Positions 43,850 to 48,519 of a DNA stretch of 64,000 nucleotides are shown piece after piece. The translations under genes and the position numbers were made by a program. Every line of letters starts with the position of its first letter. Within the stretch, counting starts at the first letter, position 1. Source of the stretch: Marinitenerispora sediminis. Its GTDB lineage: Bacteria > Actinomycetota > Actinomycetes > Streptosporangiales > Streptosporangiaceae. The notes under the pieces were generated by a model. It was not told where the DNA came from, did no database searches, and saw nothing but the letters and a program-made list of their open reading frames with translations. Location: positions 1-64,000 of the forward strand of contig NZ_QEIO01000004.1 in assembly GCF_003336425.1 (NCBI RefSeq), written 5' to 3'.

Positions 43850-43970
43850 GCCCCGGCGGCAACCGTCGCCGTCGCCGGCGCGCGCCCCGCTCCGCGGGAA
43901 CCCCGGGACCGCCGCGGGCGTCGAAGGCGACGCGCGGGCTGTTCCGCGCCGAAGAGCAGGAGTGTGCGAC

Positions 43971-44357
43971 ATGAGCTATCCCGGACCTCCGCCGCAGAGT
44001 CCGGGGGGCTGGGGGCCTCCTCCGCCTCCGCCCCCGCCGCCCCCTCCACCGGGAGGCTGGTTCCAGAGCGGGCCCTACGGCGGCTCGTCCGAACCGCCCG
44101 CGAGCACCGGGAGCGCCGTCGGCGCCCTGATCGCCAACATCCTCGCCCTCTGCCTCTGCTGGGTGTTCGCGGCGCCCGGCCTGATCCTGGCGATCGTCGC
44201 CCTGAGCCAGACGGCCAGCAACCCCTCCTCCGCGCGCACCTGCACGCTGATCTCCTGGATCCTCTTCGGAGTGGCCGTCCTGAGCGGTGCGGCGTACTTC
44301 GCCTACTGGTTGCTGGTGGGCGGCGCCCTGTGGTTCGAGACCCTCGACACTATGTGA
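43971..44357 (+). CDS. proline-rich two-helix membrane protein
   Basis: 128 residues. The N-terminal third is Pro/Gly-rich (runs of prolines between 17 and 30), followed by two hydrophobic helices (about 51-77 and 92-120). Similar DUF4190-type proteins are common in actinomycetes, with no defined function. GGAG 9 bp upstream of the ATG supports this start over the GTG three codons earlier. It lies downstream of the iron-regulated gene and convergent with the transporter operon. Confidence 0.75.
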   Translation: MSYPGPPPQSPGGWGPPPPPPPPPPPPGGWFQSGPYGGSSEPPASTGSAVGALIANILALCLCWVFAAPGLILAIVALSQTASNPSSARTCTLISWILFGVAVLSGAAYFAYWLLVGGALWFETLDTM

Positions 44358-44444: not shown

Positions 44445-44480
44445 GCGCGGCGGACCCCGGGATCCCGGGGTCCGCCGCGC
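44445..44480. terminator. perfect 36-bp palindrome, convergent terminator
   Basis: A perfect palindrome of 36 bp sits between the converging proline-rich protein gene and the FtsX-like permease gene. The transcript from either side would form a very stable hairpin. Placement between convergent stops argues for termination rather than an operator. Confidence 0.8.
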
Positions 44481-44574: not shown

Positions 44575-45642
44575 TCAGCGGTTCTTGAAGTAGCCGAACA
44601 GGTGCTTCTCCCGGACCAGCAGCAGCGCGGCGACCGCCCCGACCTGCGCGGCGCACACCGCGGCCAGCGGGCCGCGGATGTCGATGAGGTACACCTCCAG
44701 CCGGTCCGCCGGATTGCCCACCGTGACGGTGAGGGCCAGCGCCCCGGCGCTCAGGGCGAGAGCCGCGAGCGACCACGCCGCCGTCTCGACCACCGTGCTC
44801 CCCAGCAGCGCCCGGCGGGAGACCCCCACGTGCAGGGCCCCGGCGTACTCCAGGCGGCGCAGCCGGACCGCGACGAAGCCGAGCACCAGCCCGGCGAGGG
44901 CGCAGGCCGGCAGCCCGTACCGGGTGGCCCGGCCGGTGAACTCGCCGACGCCGTCGAACGAGGCGCCGAACCGGTTGTTCAGCCGGCCGAGGGTCATGTT
45001 CGACGTGGTCCCCGGCCGCACCGCCGCGGCGGCGTAGACGAGCGCGTCCGCCGACTCCGACAGCGGCCAGACCTCCGCCCAGCACTCGTCGAACGTCCCC
45101 GCCGCCGGCCGCGGCACCAGCACCGCGTGGCGCAGCCGGCCGTCCCGCCCGTCCTGTGGGTAGGGGTAGGTGCCGGCGACGGTGAGCGGGCCCGCCGTGG
45201 TCGCCAGGGTCTCGCCCGCGCGCACGCCGAGGGTGCGCGCGAGGTCGGCCGGCAGCCACACCCCCTCCGCGGAGACCGCGCGCACCCGCAGGACGTCGGC
45301 AAGTCCGGGGGTGACCTCGTAGGCGGGGATGGGGTTGGCGAACATGGCCTCCAGGACCACCGGATCGGCGGGCACCAGGGCCCCTGCTCCGCGGACGCCC
45401 GCCACCTCGCCGAGCCGGTCGCACGACCGGCCGTCGGTCATCCCCTCGGCGTTGAGGGTGCGTACCGACGCCCCCGACTCGACGAACTCCACCGCCCGCC
45501 GCTCTAGGGCGACGATGGACCGCGCGTCGGCGACCGCCAGGCCGCCGCCGATGACGGCCAGGGCGAGCGCGAAGACCGCCGCCCGCGTGGTGCCCGAGGC
45601 GACGTTGCGCACCGCCTCGGAGAGCACGGATCTCCACCTCAT
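44575..45642 (-). CDS. FtsX/MacB-like ABC permease
   Basis: 355 residues, with one helix at about 15-37, a large extracellular domain (about 40-225), then three helices (about 232-255, 275-300, 315-338). This is the MacB/FtsX topology of mechanotransmission or bacteriocin-associated exporters. The start is coupled to the ATPase stop (4-bp overlap). Such permeases do not carry substrates through the membrane themselves; they drive a periplasmic or surface partner. Last gene of an operon with the ATPase, peptidoglycan-binding adaptor, lipoprotein and secreted peptide. Confidence 0.83.
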   Translation of the reverse strand: MRWRSVLSEAVRNVASGTTRAAVFALALAVIGGGLAVADARSIVALERRAVEFVESGASVRTLNAEGMTDGRSCDRLGEVAGVRGAGALVPADPVVLEAMFANPIPAYEVTPGLADVLRVRAVSAEGVWLPADLARTLGVRAGETLATTAGPLTVAGTYPYPQDGRDGRLRHAVLVPRPAAGTFDECWAEVWPLSESADALVYAAAAVRPGTTSNMTLGRLNNRFGASFDGVGEFTGRATRYGLPACALAGLVLGFVAVRLRRLEYAGALHVGVSRRALLGSTVVETAAWSLAALALSAGALALTVTVGNPADRLEVYLIDIRGPLAAVCAAQVGAVAALLLVREKHLFGYFKNR

Positions 45643-46277
45643 GGCGCCGTCCGATCGCGCACCGCGTAGTGCGCCATGTCGATGACCCGGCCGCAGGCGG
45701 CCCGCGTGTGCGGGTCGTGGGTGGCGACCACCACGATCGTGCCCTCCTGCGCGATCGCCCCCAGCGTCTCGTTCACCGTCGCCGCGGTCCGCAGGTCCAG
45801 CTGCGCGGTCGGCTCGTCCACGAGCAGCAGGTCGGGGGCCGAGCACACGGAGCGGGCCAGCATCAGCCGCTGGGCCTCCCCGCCGGACAGCTCCCGGAAC
45901 GGCTGGTGGACCACCCCGGACAGGTTGAACATCGCCATGACCTCGCGTGCGCGCCGCTCGGCGTCGTCACGGGTGAGGCCCCGGGCCAGCAGCGGCAGGG
46001 CCACGTGGTCCACGGCCGTGCGGGCGGGCACCCCGTAGGGGTTCTGGAACACCCACCCCGTGCGCTCGATGCCGACCTTCTCGATCCGTCCGGCGACCGG
46101 CTCCAGCCATCCGGCGAGAATGGACAGCAGCGTCGACTTCCCGCAGCCGGAGGGACCGCAGATGCCGACGATCTCCCCGGGCAGCAGCGTGAAGTCCAGG
46201 CCGCCGAACAGGTCGTCGGTGCCCGCGAAGCGGTGCCCGAGCCCGGTCGCCCGGACCAGTTTCGGCGCCTCTGTCAT
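45639..46277 (-). CDS. ABC transporter ATPase, MacB/lactococcin-972 group type
   Basis: 212 residues from the ATG at 46277, which overlaps the adaptor stop as ATGA. Walker A GPSGCGKST, Q-loop FQNPYG, signature LSGGEAQRLMLA, Walker B LLLVDEPTAQLD and the H-loop THDPHT are all present. The small size and sequence around VPARTAVDHVALPLL place it in the MacB/LolD group, which includes the ATPases of lactococcin-972-type loci. Partner of the following FtsX-like permease. Confidence 0.88.
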   Translation of the reverse strand: MTEAPKLVRATGLGHRFAGTDDLFGGLDFTLLPGEIVGICGPSGCGKSTLLSILAGWLEPVAGRIEKVGIERTGWVFQNPYGVPARTAVDHVALPLLARGLTRDDAERRAREVMAMFNLSGVVHQPFRELSGGEAQRLMLARSVCSAPDLLLVDEPTAQLDLRTAATVNETLGAIAQEGTIVVVATHDPHTRAACGRVIDMAHYAVRDRTAP

Positions 46278-47323
46278 GGTTCCCGACCGCATGACTGCGC
46301 CGTGATCGCCGGGCCGAGGTCCACCTCGGCCGGCGGATCGCCCTCCAGTTCGATGAGGGACGCCCCGAGGTTGGAGCCGACGATCTCCACCGGGTAGGCG
46401 TCGTCGCCGGACTCCACGCACCCGCTGCGGCCCTCGATGGCGAAGACCGCCGCGGGCGGCACCTTCAGCGTCCGCAGCGGGGAGGCGAGCCGGATCTCAG
46501 CGGTCACCGGGTCGGCGTCCTCGCTCGCGGTGACCTCCTGGAAGGCGGAGGTCGCCGCGAGCTCCGCCAGGAACTCCGGGTCACTCACCCGGCCGTCCTC
46601 GTCCATCGGGCCGGAGACGCCGAGCACGTCCATGGTCCGCTCGCCCGGTACCGCGCCGCCGGGCATCGAGGCGACGCTGACGGCGGTGAGCTGGTTGGAC
46701 ACGGTCCCGAAGGCCTCGCCCGCGGTGACGTTGCGGCCCAGCACGGCCTCGCAGCTCTCCAGCGTGACCGCGTCGGTCGGCAGCCACATGAACCGGTCGA
46801 CGTCGATCGCGCCGTCCGGCTCGCGGATCCCGGCGTCGTCCTGCAGCTCCCGGACGGCCGCCGCCGTCTGCCAGCCGTAGGTCCCGTCGGCCGCGGCCTC
46901 GTAGCCGAGCCGCGAGAGCGCGGTCTGCAGCGCCCGGACATCGCGGCCCCGGTCGCCGCGTCCGAGGTCGCGGTAGAGCGGGACCGACGTCGCCAGCGCC
47001 ACGAGCGGCGTGTTGTCGATCCGTGCCGCGACCTGGCCGGACCGGATCTCGGCCCCGACCTCGCAGCGCGTCGAGGTGACCCGGCCGGCGAAGCCGACCT
47101 CCAGGGCCAGGGCCTCGGGGATCTCGAACTCGACCTCGACGGTCCGCTCGTCGGCGAACTCCTCCACGCTCACGGGCGCGGAGGTCGGTTCGTCCGCTTC
47201 GGCCAGCCCGGTGGGCGGATCGGCGGGGCGCAGCAGGAAGCCGGCCGTTCCGCCGCCGGTCAGCAGGAGCAGGCCGGCGAGCAGGGCGGTGCCCGGTGAC
47301 TGCACGCGCACCCCGCCCCTCAC
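46274..47323 (-). CDS. exported adaptor with peptidoglycan-binding domain (HlyD-like)
   Basis: 349 residues from the GTG at 47323 (GGAGG upstream). It starts with an N-terminal signal/anchor helix (about 9-27). A beta-rich, acidic adaptor-like part follows, with a short region EFEIPEALALEVGFAGRV of HlyD flavour. A peptidoglycan-binding-1 domain follows at about 120-165 (GDRGRDVRALQTALSRLGYEA and YGWQTAAAVRELQDDAGI). This would tether the exporter or its product to the cell wall. It overlaps the ATPase gene by ATGA. The combination of adaptor, wall-binding domain and MacB-like pair points to a surface-delivered protein cargo. Confidence 0.78.
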   Translation of the reverse strand: MRGGVRVQSPGTALLAGLLLLTGGGTAGFLLRPADPPTGLAEADEPTSAPVSVEEFADERTVEVEFEIPEALALEVGFAGRVTSTRCEVGAEIRSGQVAARIDNTPLVALATSVPLYRDLGRGDRGRDVRALQTALSRLGYEAAADGTYGWQTAAAVRELQDDAGIREPDGAIDVDRFMWLPTDAVTLESCEAVLGRNVTAGEAFGTVSNQLTAVSVASMPGGAVPGERTMDVLGVSGPMDEDGRVSDPEFLAELAATSAFQEVTASEDADPVTAEIRLASPLRTLKVPPAAVFAIEGRSGCVESGDDAYPVEIVGSNLGASLIELEGDPPAEVDLGPAITAQSCGREP

Positions 47324-47390
47324 GCTGCCCCTCCCCGCGCAGCCCGGCGGACGCGGCCCGACCCGGGGTCCGGCCGCCGCGTAGCGCCGG

Positions 47391-48056
47391 TCACGAGGAC
47401 TCGTCCTGGATCTCGACGTTGTACCCGCCGCGGACCAGGCAGTCCTGGGCGGTCGCGTCCATGGGATCGAAGGGGGCGTCCTCGAACCCGTTCTGGAAGT
47501 CCTCGTGCAGCTGCTCCACGGTGTAGTCCGCGGGGACCAGGCCCGCCTCGACCAGGCACTGGAGGGTGACCTCGCGGCCGTCCTCCAGCAGGTCGGGGTT
47601 GCTGATCTGGGTCCGGTACAGGGCCTCGATCCGCATGGTGGTGCCGTCGGCGCACTCGATGCTGAGGTCCTGGTAGCGCTGGCTGGCGGTGTCGTCCTCG
47701 AACGGCGAGGGCTGGATCTGGTAGATGCCGTCCGGCTGCCGCTCGTAGGACTCCTCCAGGCCGGCGTCCTGCGCGCACTGCCGGTACCGGCTGAACGCCT
47801 CCTCGTAGTCGTCGGCGCTGATCTCGCCGTTCTCGATCGCGCGGTCGAAGACCTCGCGCTCGAAGTCCGAGGTGGCCGACGCCCGCGCCTGCTCGAACTG
47901 CTCCACGAGCGTGAGGTCCATGGTCGAGCCGGGGCCCTCCTCCCCCTCGGTCCGCTGGCCCTCCTGCCCGACTCCCGAGCAGCCCGACAGCAGCGCGGCG
48001 GTCGCAGCCAGGGCGGCGATCCGGGATTTCGTCCGGCGCGGTCTGGCAATCCGCAT
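47391..48056 (-). CDS. acidic lipoprotein of the peptide-exporter operon
   Basis: 221 residues from the ATG at 48056 (GGAG upstream). The lipobox LSGC follows a basic N-terminus. The mature part is acidic, with three conserved-looking cysteines (YRQCAQDAG, LSIECADG, LQCLVEAG, and DCLVRGG) and repeated EEAFSRY/LHEDFQNGF-type helical segments. No known family recognised. It lies between the secreted peptide gene and the adaptor gene, so it could be the surface immunity or docking component. Confidence 0.68.
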   Translation of the reverse strand: MRIARPRRTKSRIAALAATAALLSGCSGVGQEGQRTEGEEGPGSTMDLTLVEQFEQARASATSDFEREVFDRAIENGEISADDYEEAFSRYRQCAQDAGLEESYERQPDGIYQIQPSPFEDDTASQRYQDLSIECADGTTMRIEALYRTQISNPDLLEDGREVTLQCLVEAGLVPADYTVEQLHEDFQNGFEDAPFDPMDATAQDCLVRGGYNVEIQDESS

Positions 48057-48074
48057 TCTCAACTCCGATTCCAT

Positions 48075-48117
48075 GCCGGCATCGATGGCAGGCGTGTGTG
48101 GGCCATCGAATGCCGGC
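48075..48117 (-). promoter_or_regulatory. hairpin between peptide gene and exporter operon
   Basis: 48075-48089 pairs with 48102-48117 through 15 bp with a single bulged base and a 12-nt loop, in the 145-bp gap between the peptide stop and the lipoprotein start. It can act as a partial terminator or processing site that makes the peptide RNA more abundant than the exporter RNA. Confidence 0.5.
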
Positions 48118-48201
48118 CACGGCCGTCCAATTCGGAATCCACGCCTTCCCACGCGGCTCGGAATCGGAAATGGCCATGGCCGGTCACCCGTCACCGGTCA
48201 G

Positions 48202-48519
48202 CTAGCTCCACTGGTTCCAGGCGCTGTAACTCGTGGAGACGCCGGCGTCCGCGAACGCCCAGGACGATCCCGTGTACCAGGCCGACAGGGCGGCGACGTT
48301 GCCGTGCTGGGCGTAGGAGCGGACGTAGTTGTACGAGGCGCACGTGTCCACGTAGCCTTCGGCGTAGGAGTAGTTGTAACCTGCGTCGACGTAGCCGTAG
48401 CAGGCGGCCTCGGCGGGAGCCGCCGCGGCGACGCCCGCGGCCAGCAGGCCCGCGGTGAGGATCGCCGCTGCCGCCCCCGAGGACAGCTTGGCGGGAGTGG
48501 TGGCCGACATGATCGCCAT
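48202..48519 (-). CDS. secreted aromatic-rich small peptide, bacteriocin candidate
   Basis: 105 residues from the ATG at 48519 (GGGGA 6 bp upstream). A signal peptide is predicted to be cleaved after APAEA. The mature peptide of about 67 residues has 11 tyrosines, four tryptophans and two cysteines. It has an internal near-repeat (YGYVDAGYNY then EGYVDTCASYNY) and a C-terminus SSWAFADAGVSTSYSAWNQW. The W-A-x-A-x-x-G spacing near the end recalls lactococcin-972-family bacteriocins. It is followed on the same strand by lipoprotein, wall-binding adaptor, ATPase and permease genes, the arrangement expected for a bacteriocin locus. An adhesive or wall-binding role is the alternative. Confidence 0.68.
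   Translation of the reverse strand: MAIMSATTPAKLSSGAAAAILTAGLLAAGVAAAAPAEAACYGYVDAGYNYSYAEGYVDTCASYNYVRSYAQHGNVAALSAWYTGSSWAFADAGVSTSYSAWNQWS

Follow-up and report, generated by a model that had tools for sequence, protein, structure and literature searches.

Five genes in the window, the 64,000-nucleotide stretch of Marinitenerispora sediminis DNA analyzed here, are likely to form a bacteriocin-immunity cassette, in which a lipoprotein would provide specific protection and a wall-anchored ABC machine would remove the peptide from its producer. The product is probably a small secreted antibacterial protein, with presumed activity and target. Counted for this reading are the occurrence of lactococcin 972 in the peptide slot, peptide swapping, peptide-lipoprotein pairing, variability, patchy distribution, orphan lipoproteins and the peptide's own Sec signal. 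Counted against it are the lack of a curated-family match for the window-type peptides, co-inheritance of the block, a lipoprotein without a fold match, and the gene order in genomes G021 and G076. A bacteriocin locus had already been proposed in an earlier note on this DNA and is retained as the best reading.

Gene layout and cassette proteins

All five genes are in frame on the minus strand between positions 48519 and 44575 (Table 1), confirming the previously proposed order peptide-lipoprotein-adaptor-ATPase-permease. The adaptor and ATPase genes overlap by 4 bases, as do the ATPase and permease genes, and GC3 is 0.92 to 0.97 across all five. Of three in-frame ATG codons, that at 48519 was taken as the peptide start because GGGGA lies six bases 5' of it, in agreement with the end coordinate assigned earlier; the adaptor starts at a GTG behind GGGGAGGGG. 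A G+C hairpin separates the operon from a convergent gene. Scans of the locus for sigma-70 promoters and T-run terminators detected none, which is little informative because the sequence is 74% G+C.

Table 1. Features of the cassette and its downstream flank
Feature	Position	Strand	Characteristics
Secreted aromatic-rich peptide, candidate bacteriocin	48202..48519	-	105 aa, mature 67 aa; ORF, RBS GGGGA, Sec signal
Lipoprotein, proposed cognate immunity/specificity factor	47391..48056	-	221 aa; lipobox LLSGC
Membrane-anchored adaptor with peptidoglycan-binding domain	46274..47323	-	349 aa; PF01471, E 8e-12
PG_binding_1 domain within adaptor	46802..46951	-	Residues 124-173 of translated 46277-47320
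ABC transporter ATPase	45639..46277	-	212 aa; PF00005, E 4e-27
FtsX/MacB-type permease	44575..45642	-	355 aa; 4 predicted TMs; invariant extracytoplasmic C74, C187
Perfect G+C hairpin, possible terminator without T run	44446..44479		RNA fold -47.8 kcal/mol, z -4.6

The lipoprotein has four further conserved Cys residues besides the lipobox Cys, and its predicted structure is helical (pLDDT 89.3). It has no Pfam match, and a PDB fold search with the model gave no significant match, the NisI and SpaI folds included; as it matches no solved fold, an immunity role is proposed from context only. The peptidoglycan-binding domain claimed for the adaptor was found (PF01471), and its similarity to RND_mfp is sub-threshold (13.9 bits where 94.9 are required; E 0.019). 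The hydropathy profile of the permease, which had been assigned as FtsX/MacB-like in the earlier note, predicts a single TM near the N-terminus, an outer portion of about 200 aa and three C-terminal TMs, a topology that fits MacAB-type systems. PF02687 (FtsX) matches 6 of 20 permease relatives weakly (best E, 6.5e-4). A plasmid search with the permease gave no match.

The ATPase had been likened to that of lactococcin 972 loci, which its scores do not bear out: no NCBIfam model is above cut-off, and TIGR03608 (114 bits; cut-off, 255) is not its best family. Nor does the permease match TIGR01654, and the Microbacteriaceae cassettes likewise fall short of both models. At a classical lactococcin 972 locus in G076, TIGR03608 is the best family for the ATPase (218 bits) and the permease matches TIGR01654 at E 2.6e-6, both below cut-off. 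Lipoprotein and adaptor are absent from classical lactococcin 972 loci of the same bacterial family. Rather than additions to the classical locus, as the earlier note had it, they belong to the core of a separate cassette. Adaptor relatives occur at 75 of 80 loci examined, and 98 lipoprotein relatives are spread over 69 of the 80.

Relationship of the peptide to lactococcin 972

Read from the sequence, the Sec signal of the peptide is complete, with an AxA-type site ending PAEA, after which the mature protein of 67 aa begins. The composition of the mature part (11 Tyr, 4 Trp and 2 Cys) confirms the aromatic richness described earlier, and the internal near-repeat (GYVDAG-YNY-SYA / GYVDTCASYNYVRSYA) is also visible. 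Structure prediction, suggested previously, gave a confident all-beta model of six strands (AlphaFold2, pLDDT 95.2); a PDB fold search with this model found no significant match. Sixteen further members of the window-type family were recovered, all in homologous cassettes (17 in total), and no Pfam or NCBIfam family reaches cut-off with them.

Membership of the lactococcin 972 family was considered and is unsupported by sequence, whether from Pfam, NCBIfam, PDB sequences or profile-profile comparison; a fold search was also run. None of the 17 peptides matches PF09683 or TIGR01653, the HMM search that had been advised, whereas all nine same-slot peptides of Microbacteriaceae, the positive control, match both. 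The solved members 2LGN and 9HKJ are absent among matches to the peptide sequence up to E 10, in a search whose positive control recovers both. With full-length profiles, hhalign gave 80% probability for the peptide against lactococcin 972, mostly from the signal peptide; with mature regions only, the probability was 4%. The C-terminal resemblance that had been noticed is not significant after signal peptide removal. The link to lactococcin 972 is nevertheless real at the locus level, because homologous Microbacteriaceae cassettes hold true lactococcin 972 peptides; of the link drawn in the earlier note, this part stands (9/9 slot-mates) and the part concerning peptide sequence models does not (0/17).

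A very divergent lactococcin 972, sharing the beta-sandwich fold and the lipid II target, would be compatible with a bacteriocin-immunity cassette and is somewhat unlikely. Both peptide types occupy the same slot of homologous cassettes and are similar in length, aromatic content and Sec signal, and the window peptide is predicted to be all-beta with six strands, lactococcin 972 being described as a beta-sandwich (PMC11796350). Comparison of mature profiles scored 16.5, above the best of 30 column shuffles (14.4), with SAWYTGSSWAFAD aligned with TAWKTSGSWAEAD. Set against this are the hhalign and family-model results and the motifs GG-x-W-x-YG and Y-x-H, which all nine lactococcin 972 peptides carry unchanged and window-type peptides lack. 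Neither 2LGN nor 9HKJ is in the Foldseek top 50 for the peptide model, a comparison that had no positive control and uses a method weak on tiny beta proteins.

Distribution, peptide exchange and co-variation

The same five-gene order, which the earlier note had suggested looking for, was found in six other family genomes. Nocardiopsis trehalosi shows this order and has the closest peptide. Occurrence is patchy (8 of 251 family genomes; 9 of 299 in the order sample), and cassettes with differing, sometimes known, bacteriocins are found in scattered genomes across Actinomycetota; class-level sampling yielded no additional genomes. A first scan of genome contigs with the peptide gave no match, and the permease alignment was the bait that worked. 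A permease-independent, peptide-only search of 251 family genomes found convincing relatives only next to the permease. When 201 genomes were searched by profile, the peptide turned up in five, all with the full permease. The locus is therefore more than chance, and conservation of the peptide without the transporter, previously named as grounds for abandoning the bacteriocin idea, was not seen in either search. Six family genomes lacking the permease gave weak matches to the peptide alone (E 2e-4 to 9e-4), which were regarded as chance; the six short loci with such matches contain no comparable small secreted peptide, and two weak-match loci fetched at greater length (L134 and L135) contain neither a window-type peptide nor the cassette.

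The four partner genes of the cassette are retained, but the peptide slot is exchanged among several small secreted peptides unrelated to one another: in Microbacteriaceae its occupants are genuine lactococcin 972 peptides, and in other genera they are different small secreted peptides. Mapped on the lipoprotein tree, peptide type requires 13 changes (minimum, 12; shuffled mean, 31.5). The permease and ATPase trees require 14 and 15 changes and agree nearly as well, so the concordance of peptide and lipoprotein partly reflects co-inheritance of the whole block. In Curtobacterium salicis (L088), one transporter lies beside four tandem peptide-lipoprotein pairs, and among seven Curtobacterium pairs, peptide identity correlates with lipoprotein identity (rho 0.80; 9 of 5040 permutations as high). 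Peptide and lipoprotein are the most variable components, with mean identities across 12 window-type loci of 40% for the peptide and 43% for the lipoprotein, compared with 48% for the adaptor, 56% for the permease and 70% for the ATPase. The genes of G021 and G076 do not form two neat pairs but run peptide-lipoprotein-lipoprotein-peptide. Some lipoprotein copies have no adjoining peptide, which would be expected if they were orphan immunity genes.

Proposed mechanism and known systems

In the proposed mechanism, the signal peptide, which is evident in the sequence, would direct the bacteriocin out of the cell by the Sec route. The mature peptide is predicted to fold outside as a small all-beta protein, usually with one putative disulfide. 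It may then inhibit sensitive relatives at the cell envelope. Lactococcin 972 binds a cell-wall precursor, and by analogy such a precursor is a plausible target. The lipoprotein, fixed to the outer face of the producer membrane, would be the cognate specificity or immunity factor, as its pairing with the peptide suggests, and the adaptor would reach into and hold the peptidoglycan. Together with the ATPase and the FtsX/MacB-type permease, the adaptor may form a common machine that strips the peptide from the producer membrane and pushes it outward. The whole would be similar to NisI with NisFEG in nisin producers, except that it would serve unmodified beta-peptides.

The ABC genes were termed an exporter in the earlier note; given the peptide's own Sec signal, complete with an AxA-type site, that role is unlikely. 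A dedicated exporter across the thick wall, with immunity left to the lipoprotein alone, would account for up to four peptides per transporter in L088 and for the NCBIfam label of the related TIGR03608 ("putative bacteriocin export" ATPase), and a peptidoglycan-binding adaptor could guide cargo through the wall. However, the Sec signal already provides for secretion, and a protein of 67 aa would be expected to cross the wall by diffusion; ABC export of mediterrocin, which is also Sec secreted, has been argued against in the same way (PMC12345188). This arrangement is quite improbable. It is also improbable that the peptide is no weapon but a signaling, developmental or wall-structural product that the lipoprotein-adaptor-ABC set senses, processes or removes. 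Actinobacteria do secrete many small nonantibiotic peptides, the adaptor is predicted to bind peptidoglycan, and the window-type peptides are without known activity, but lactococcin 972 bacteriocins occur in homologous cassettes, and rapid swapping of unrelated peptides, tandem pairs and patchiness do not fit a conserved structural or developmental role.

More tentatively, the bacteriocin-immunity reading could extend to a widespread actinobacterial cassette class, in which one shared protective machine accommodates unrelated small secreted peptides, lactococcin 972 being one. A cognate lipoprotein of new fold would hand the peptide to a peptidoglycan-anchored, MacB-like complex for ejection across the wall, as tripartite efflux might look in a cell with a single membrane, and the window peptide would found a new bacteriocin family. 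The functions of the partner genes of any lactococcin 972 locus are stated to be experimentally unverified (PMC11796350). The cassette would separate this problem into a variable lipoprotein and a common pump encoded by distinct genes, and natural tandem peptide-lipoprotein pairs provide material for testing specificity. Permease or adaptor may also serve as a gene handle for small secreted antibacterial peptides that vary too much to be mined by their own sequences.

No description of the cassette, or of its adaptor in bacteriocin immunity, was found in the literature searched. The classical lactococcin 972, streptococcin B (scbABC) and mediterrocin loci resemble it in that ABC transporter genes follow the gene for an unmodified beta peptide of about 65 aa, rich in aromatic residues and secreted by Sec, and true lactococcin 972 members fill the homologous slot in Microbacteriaceae cassettes. 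In classical loci, however, the permease is large and of the TIGR01654/DUF1430 type, the ATPase is of the TIGR03608 type, and there is neither lipoprotein nor peptidoglycan-binding adaptor, whereas the window cassette has other transporter types and a peptide without a family-model match. NisI/NisFEG (LanI plus LanFEG) protects the producer of an envelope-active peptide by a surface lipoprotein and an ABC transporter, components also present in the window cassette. The five-gene operon, unlike LanI/LanFEG systems, contains no lantibiotic-modification gene; its lipoprotein differs from LanI in being predicted helical, with four conserved Cys residues and no significant PDB fold match, and an FtsX/MacB-type permease plus peptidoglycan-binding adaptor replaces LanEG. 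The actinobacterial operons of Brevibacterium encode a lactococcin 972-like peptide, two membrane proteins and an ATPase (PMC5719810); compared by description, they include no described lipoprotein or peptidoglycan-binding adaptor. MacAB-type efflux systems share the ATPase, a 4-TM FtsX/MacB-type permease with a large extracytoplasmic domain and a membrane-anchored adaptor, but in the window cassette ATPase and permease are separate genes, and the adaptor has a PG_binding_1 domain with RND_mfp similarity only sub-threshold. If adaptor and permease work as proposed, a cell with only one membrane would possess an efflux machine that is anchored in its wall.

Gene content of the operon

Five genes on the minus strand of the window, read in one direction from 48519 to 44575, form an operon that looks self-contained (see table). 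The lipoprotein, wall-binding adaptor, ATPase and FtsX/MacB-like permease claimed in the earlier note are all present, as judged by the lipobox, the PG_binding_1 domain and the transmembrane (TM) segments. The 67-aa mature part of the peptide, which follows a Sec signal ending in PAEA, has the composition stated in the note (11 Tyr, 4 Trp, 2 Cys). The match of the adaptor to RND_mfp is subthreshold, and FtsX is weakly matched by 6 of 20 permease relatives.

Features of the cassette and its downstream flank in the window
Feature	Position	Strand	Details
Secreted peptide, 105 aa	start 48519	-	ATG with GGGGA six bases upstream
Lipoprotein	48056-47391	-	lipobox LLSGC
Adaptor	start 47323	-	GTG start with GGGGAGGGG upstream; PG_binding_1 E 8e-12
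ABC ATPase	46277-45639	-	four-base overlap with permease gene
Permease	45642-44575	-	one N-terminal TM, ~200 residues outside, three C-terminal TMs
Perfect G+C hairpin	44446-44479		between operon and convergent gene
Small proline-rich membrane protein	43962-44357	+	convergent with operon; DUF4190 match subthreshold

AlphaFold2 confidently predicts a six-stranded all-beta fold for the mature peptide (pLDDT 95.2, pTM 0.81). A Foldseek search of this model against the PDB, run without a positive control, gave no significant match, and lactococcin 972 lay outside the top 50. The lipoprotein, with four further conserved Cys, is modeled as helical and had no PDB match in the fold search.

Distribution of the cassette

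The permease occurs in 8 of 251 genomes of the host's family, once as a fragment only. According to the earlier note, conservation of the peptide without the exporter would have spoken against a bacteriocin; when the peptide was searched alone as a single sequence in these genomes, convincing relatives were confined to permease-bearing contigs. A peptide profile found 5 of 201 family genomes, all with a full permease, but because it was derived from permease-bearing loci themselves, the single-sequence search is the unbiased evidence.

A search with the permease alignment recovered 76 loci in named genomes, from Nocardiopsis, Thermomonospora, Actinoplanes, Plantactinospora, Virgisporangium, Microbacterium, Cellulomonas, Sanguibacter, Leifsonia, Leucobacter, Curtobacterium, Mycetocola, Bifidobacterium, Propionibacteriaceae and others. 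The cassette, which the earlier note proposed to seek elsewhere, is real and conserved: among 80 examined loci (a set that takes in the window and three family genomes and counts one genome twice), 75 have the adaptor and 69 the lipoprotein, with 98 lipoprotein copies over those 69 loci, nearly all with a lipobox-like motif.

In Nocardiopsis sp. FIRDI 009 (L027:9244-11430, the same place as L098), no more of the permease than its last 84 residues remains, heading a 729-aa open frame with the other cassette genes absent around it, probably a cassette relic. The cassettes of Sphaerisporangium cinnabarinum ATCC 31213 (L052) and Cellulosimicrobium funkei (L046), from distant families, are almost identical; either the cassette was transferred recently, or one assembly is contaminated or carries the wrong name.

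Peptide slot and classical lactococcin 972 loci

The window-type peptide family (n = 17) shares the core GRSYAxHG...W.T.SSxAxAD...A..FR, with cysteines usual, not universal. The likeness to lactococcin 972 proposed earlier was not borne out by the HMM check, as PF09683 and TIGR01653 matched none of the 17, and judged from sequence the family stands outside current models. When profiles of the mature regions alone were compared, the match to the lactococcin 972 group was not significant (probability 4%), although it outscored each of 30 column shuffles; a distant common origin is possible.

The occupant of the slot varies, peptides being swapped between homologous cassettes. In Microbacteriaceae the open reading frame (ORF) in the same place encodes a lactococcin 972 peptide (9 of 9 tested), resembling in sequence the solved family structures 2LGN and 9HKJ, and further secreted peptides fill the slot in Curtobacterium, Mycetocola, Cellulosimicrobium, Propionibacteriaceae and others. 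Directly upstream of 50 of the 98 lipoprotein copies lies a small ORF with a crude signal peptide, by a simple filter that passed a few unconvincing ORFs (e.g., L064 and L069:3557). In a Microbacterium MAG (L038:3145-3495), a window-type peptide lies ~2 kb upstream of the lipoprotein. Bifidobacterium loci L057, L063 and L065 carry two to four lipoprotein copies with no recognizable adjoining peptide; these are possibly immunity-only arrays, or the filter may have missed adjoining peptides.

True lactococcin 972 genes occur in 14 of 201 family genomes. Six of these loci were examined, and the cassette lipoprotein, adaptor and permease were all absent, the one weak lipoprotein match (L131, E 0.009) being on the opposite strand. 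One genome (G076) holds both the window-type cassette and a classical locus (L127:4829-8280). In the latter, two lactococcin 972 genes in tandem accompany a large permease related to TIGR01654 and an ATPase that scores highest against TIGR03608. Neither the ATPase nor the permease of the window fits these models. Two architectures are thus found side by side within one bacterial family. In the available parts of their descriptions, the mediterrocin (PMC12345188) and Brevibacterium (PMC5719810) loci are given without a lipoprotein or PG-binding adaptor. According to PMC11796350, no lactococcin 972 locus has had the functions of its partner B and C genes verified.

Peptide-lipoprotein pairing and putative function

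Peptides and lipoproteins are paired. Peptide type, for which 13 classes were distinguished by eye and by model, changes 13 times on the lipoprotein tree (n = 51); the minimum is 12 and the mean after shuffling 31.5. Lipoproteins beside window-type peptides, from six named or coded families, form one group (support 99), separate from the lipoproteins that accompany lactococcin 972 peptides in other Microbacteriaceae. Concordance is nearly as good on the trees of the permease (14 changes) and the ATPase (15 changes), and therefore the cassette block is largely co-inherited. The correlation within Curtobacterium is a sharper test of pairing than the lipoprotein tree: peptide and lipoprotein identities among seven pairs gave a rho of 0.80, and 9 of 5040 permutations gave a value as high. 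In Curtobacterium salicis (L088:2160-6338), four tandem peptide-lipoprotein pairs, with peptides of ACYGSVS and ACWGQ types, precede one adaptor-ATPase-permease set.

Genomic context suggests a bacteriocin-immunity function and antibacterial activity; such a cassette is, as far as searched, undescribed, no paper on it being found in literature coverage that took in few subscription journals. The peptide may act on the bacterial envelope, the lipoprotein would confer immunity and the wall-anchored ABC machine would remove the peptide, which, being Sec secreted, does not need an ABC exporter. Nisin producers combine the lipoprotein NisI with the ABC transporter NisFEG, and MacB-type transporters handle substrates outside the membrane. 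Mean identities over 12 window-type loci were 70% for the ATPase, 56% for the permease, 48% for the adaptor, 43% for the lipoprotein and 40% for the peptide, the ranking that would be expected if a toxin and its immunity protein sat next to a shared machine.

The cassettes at L025:5165-7068 and L024:9217-11235 each encode a pair of peptides and a pair of lipoproteins; four Cys are present in the second peptide, and the match of the second lipoprotein to its family is limited to the C-terminal part.
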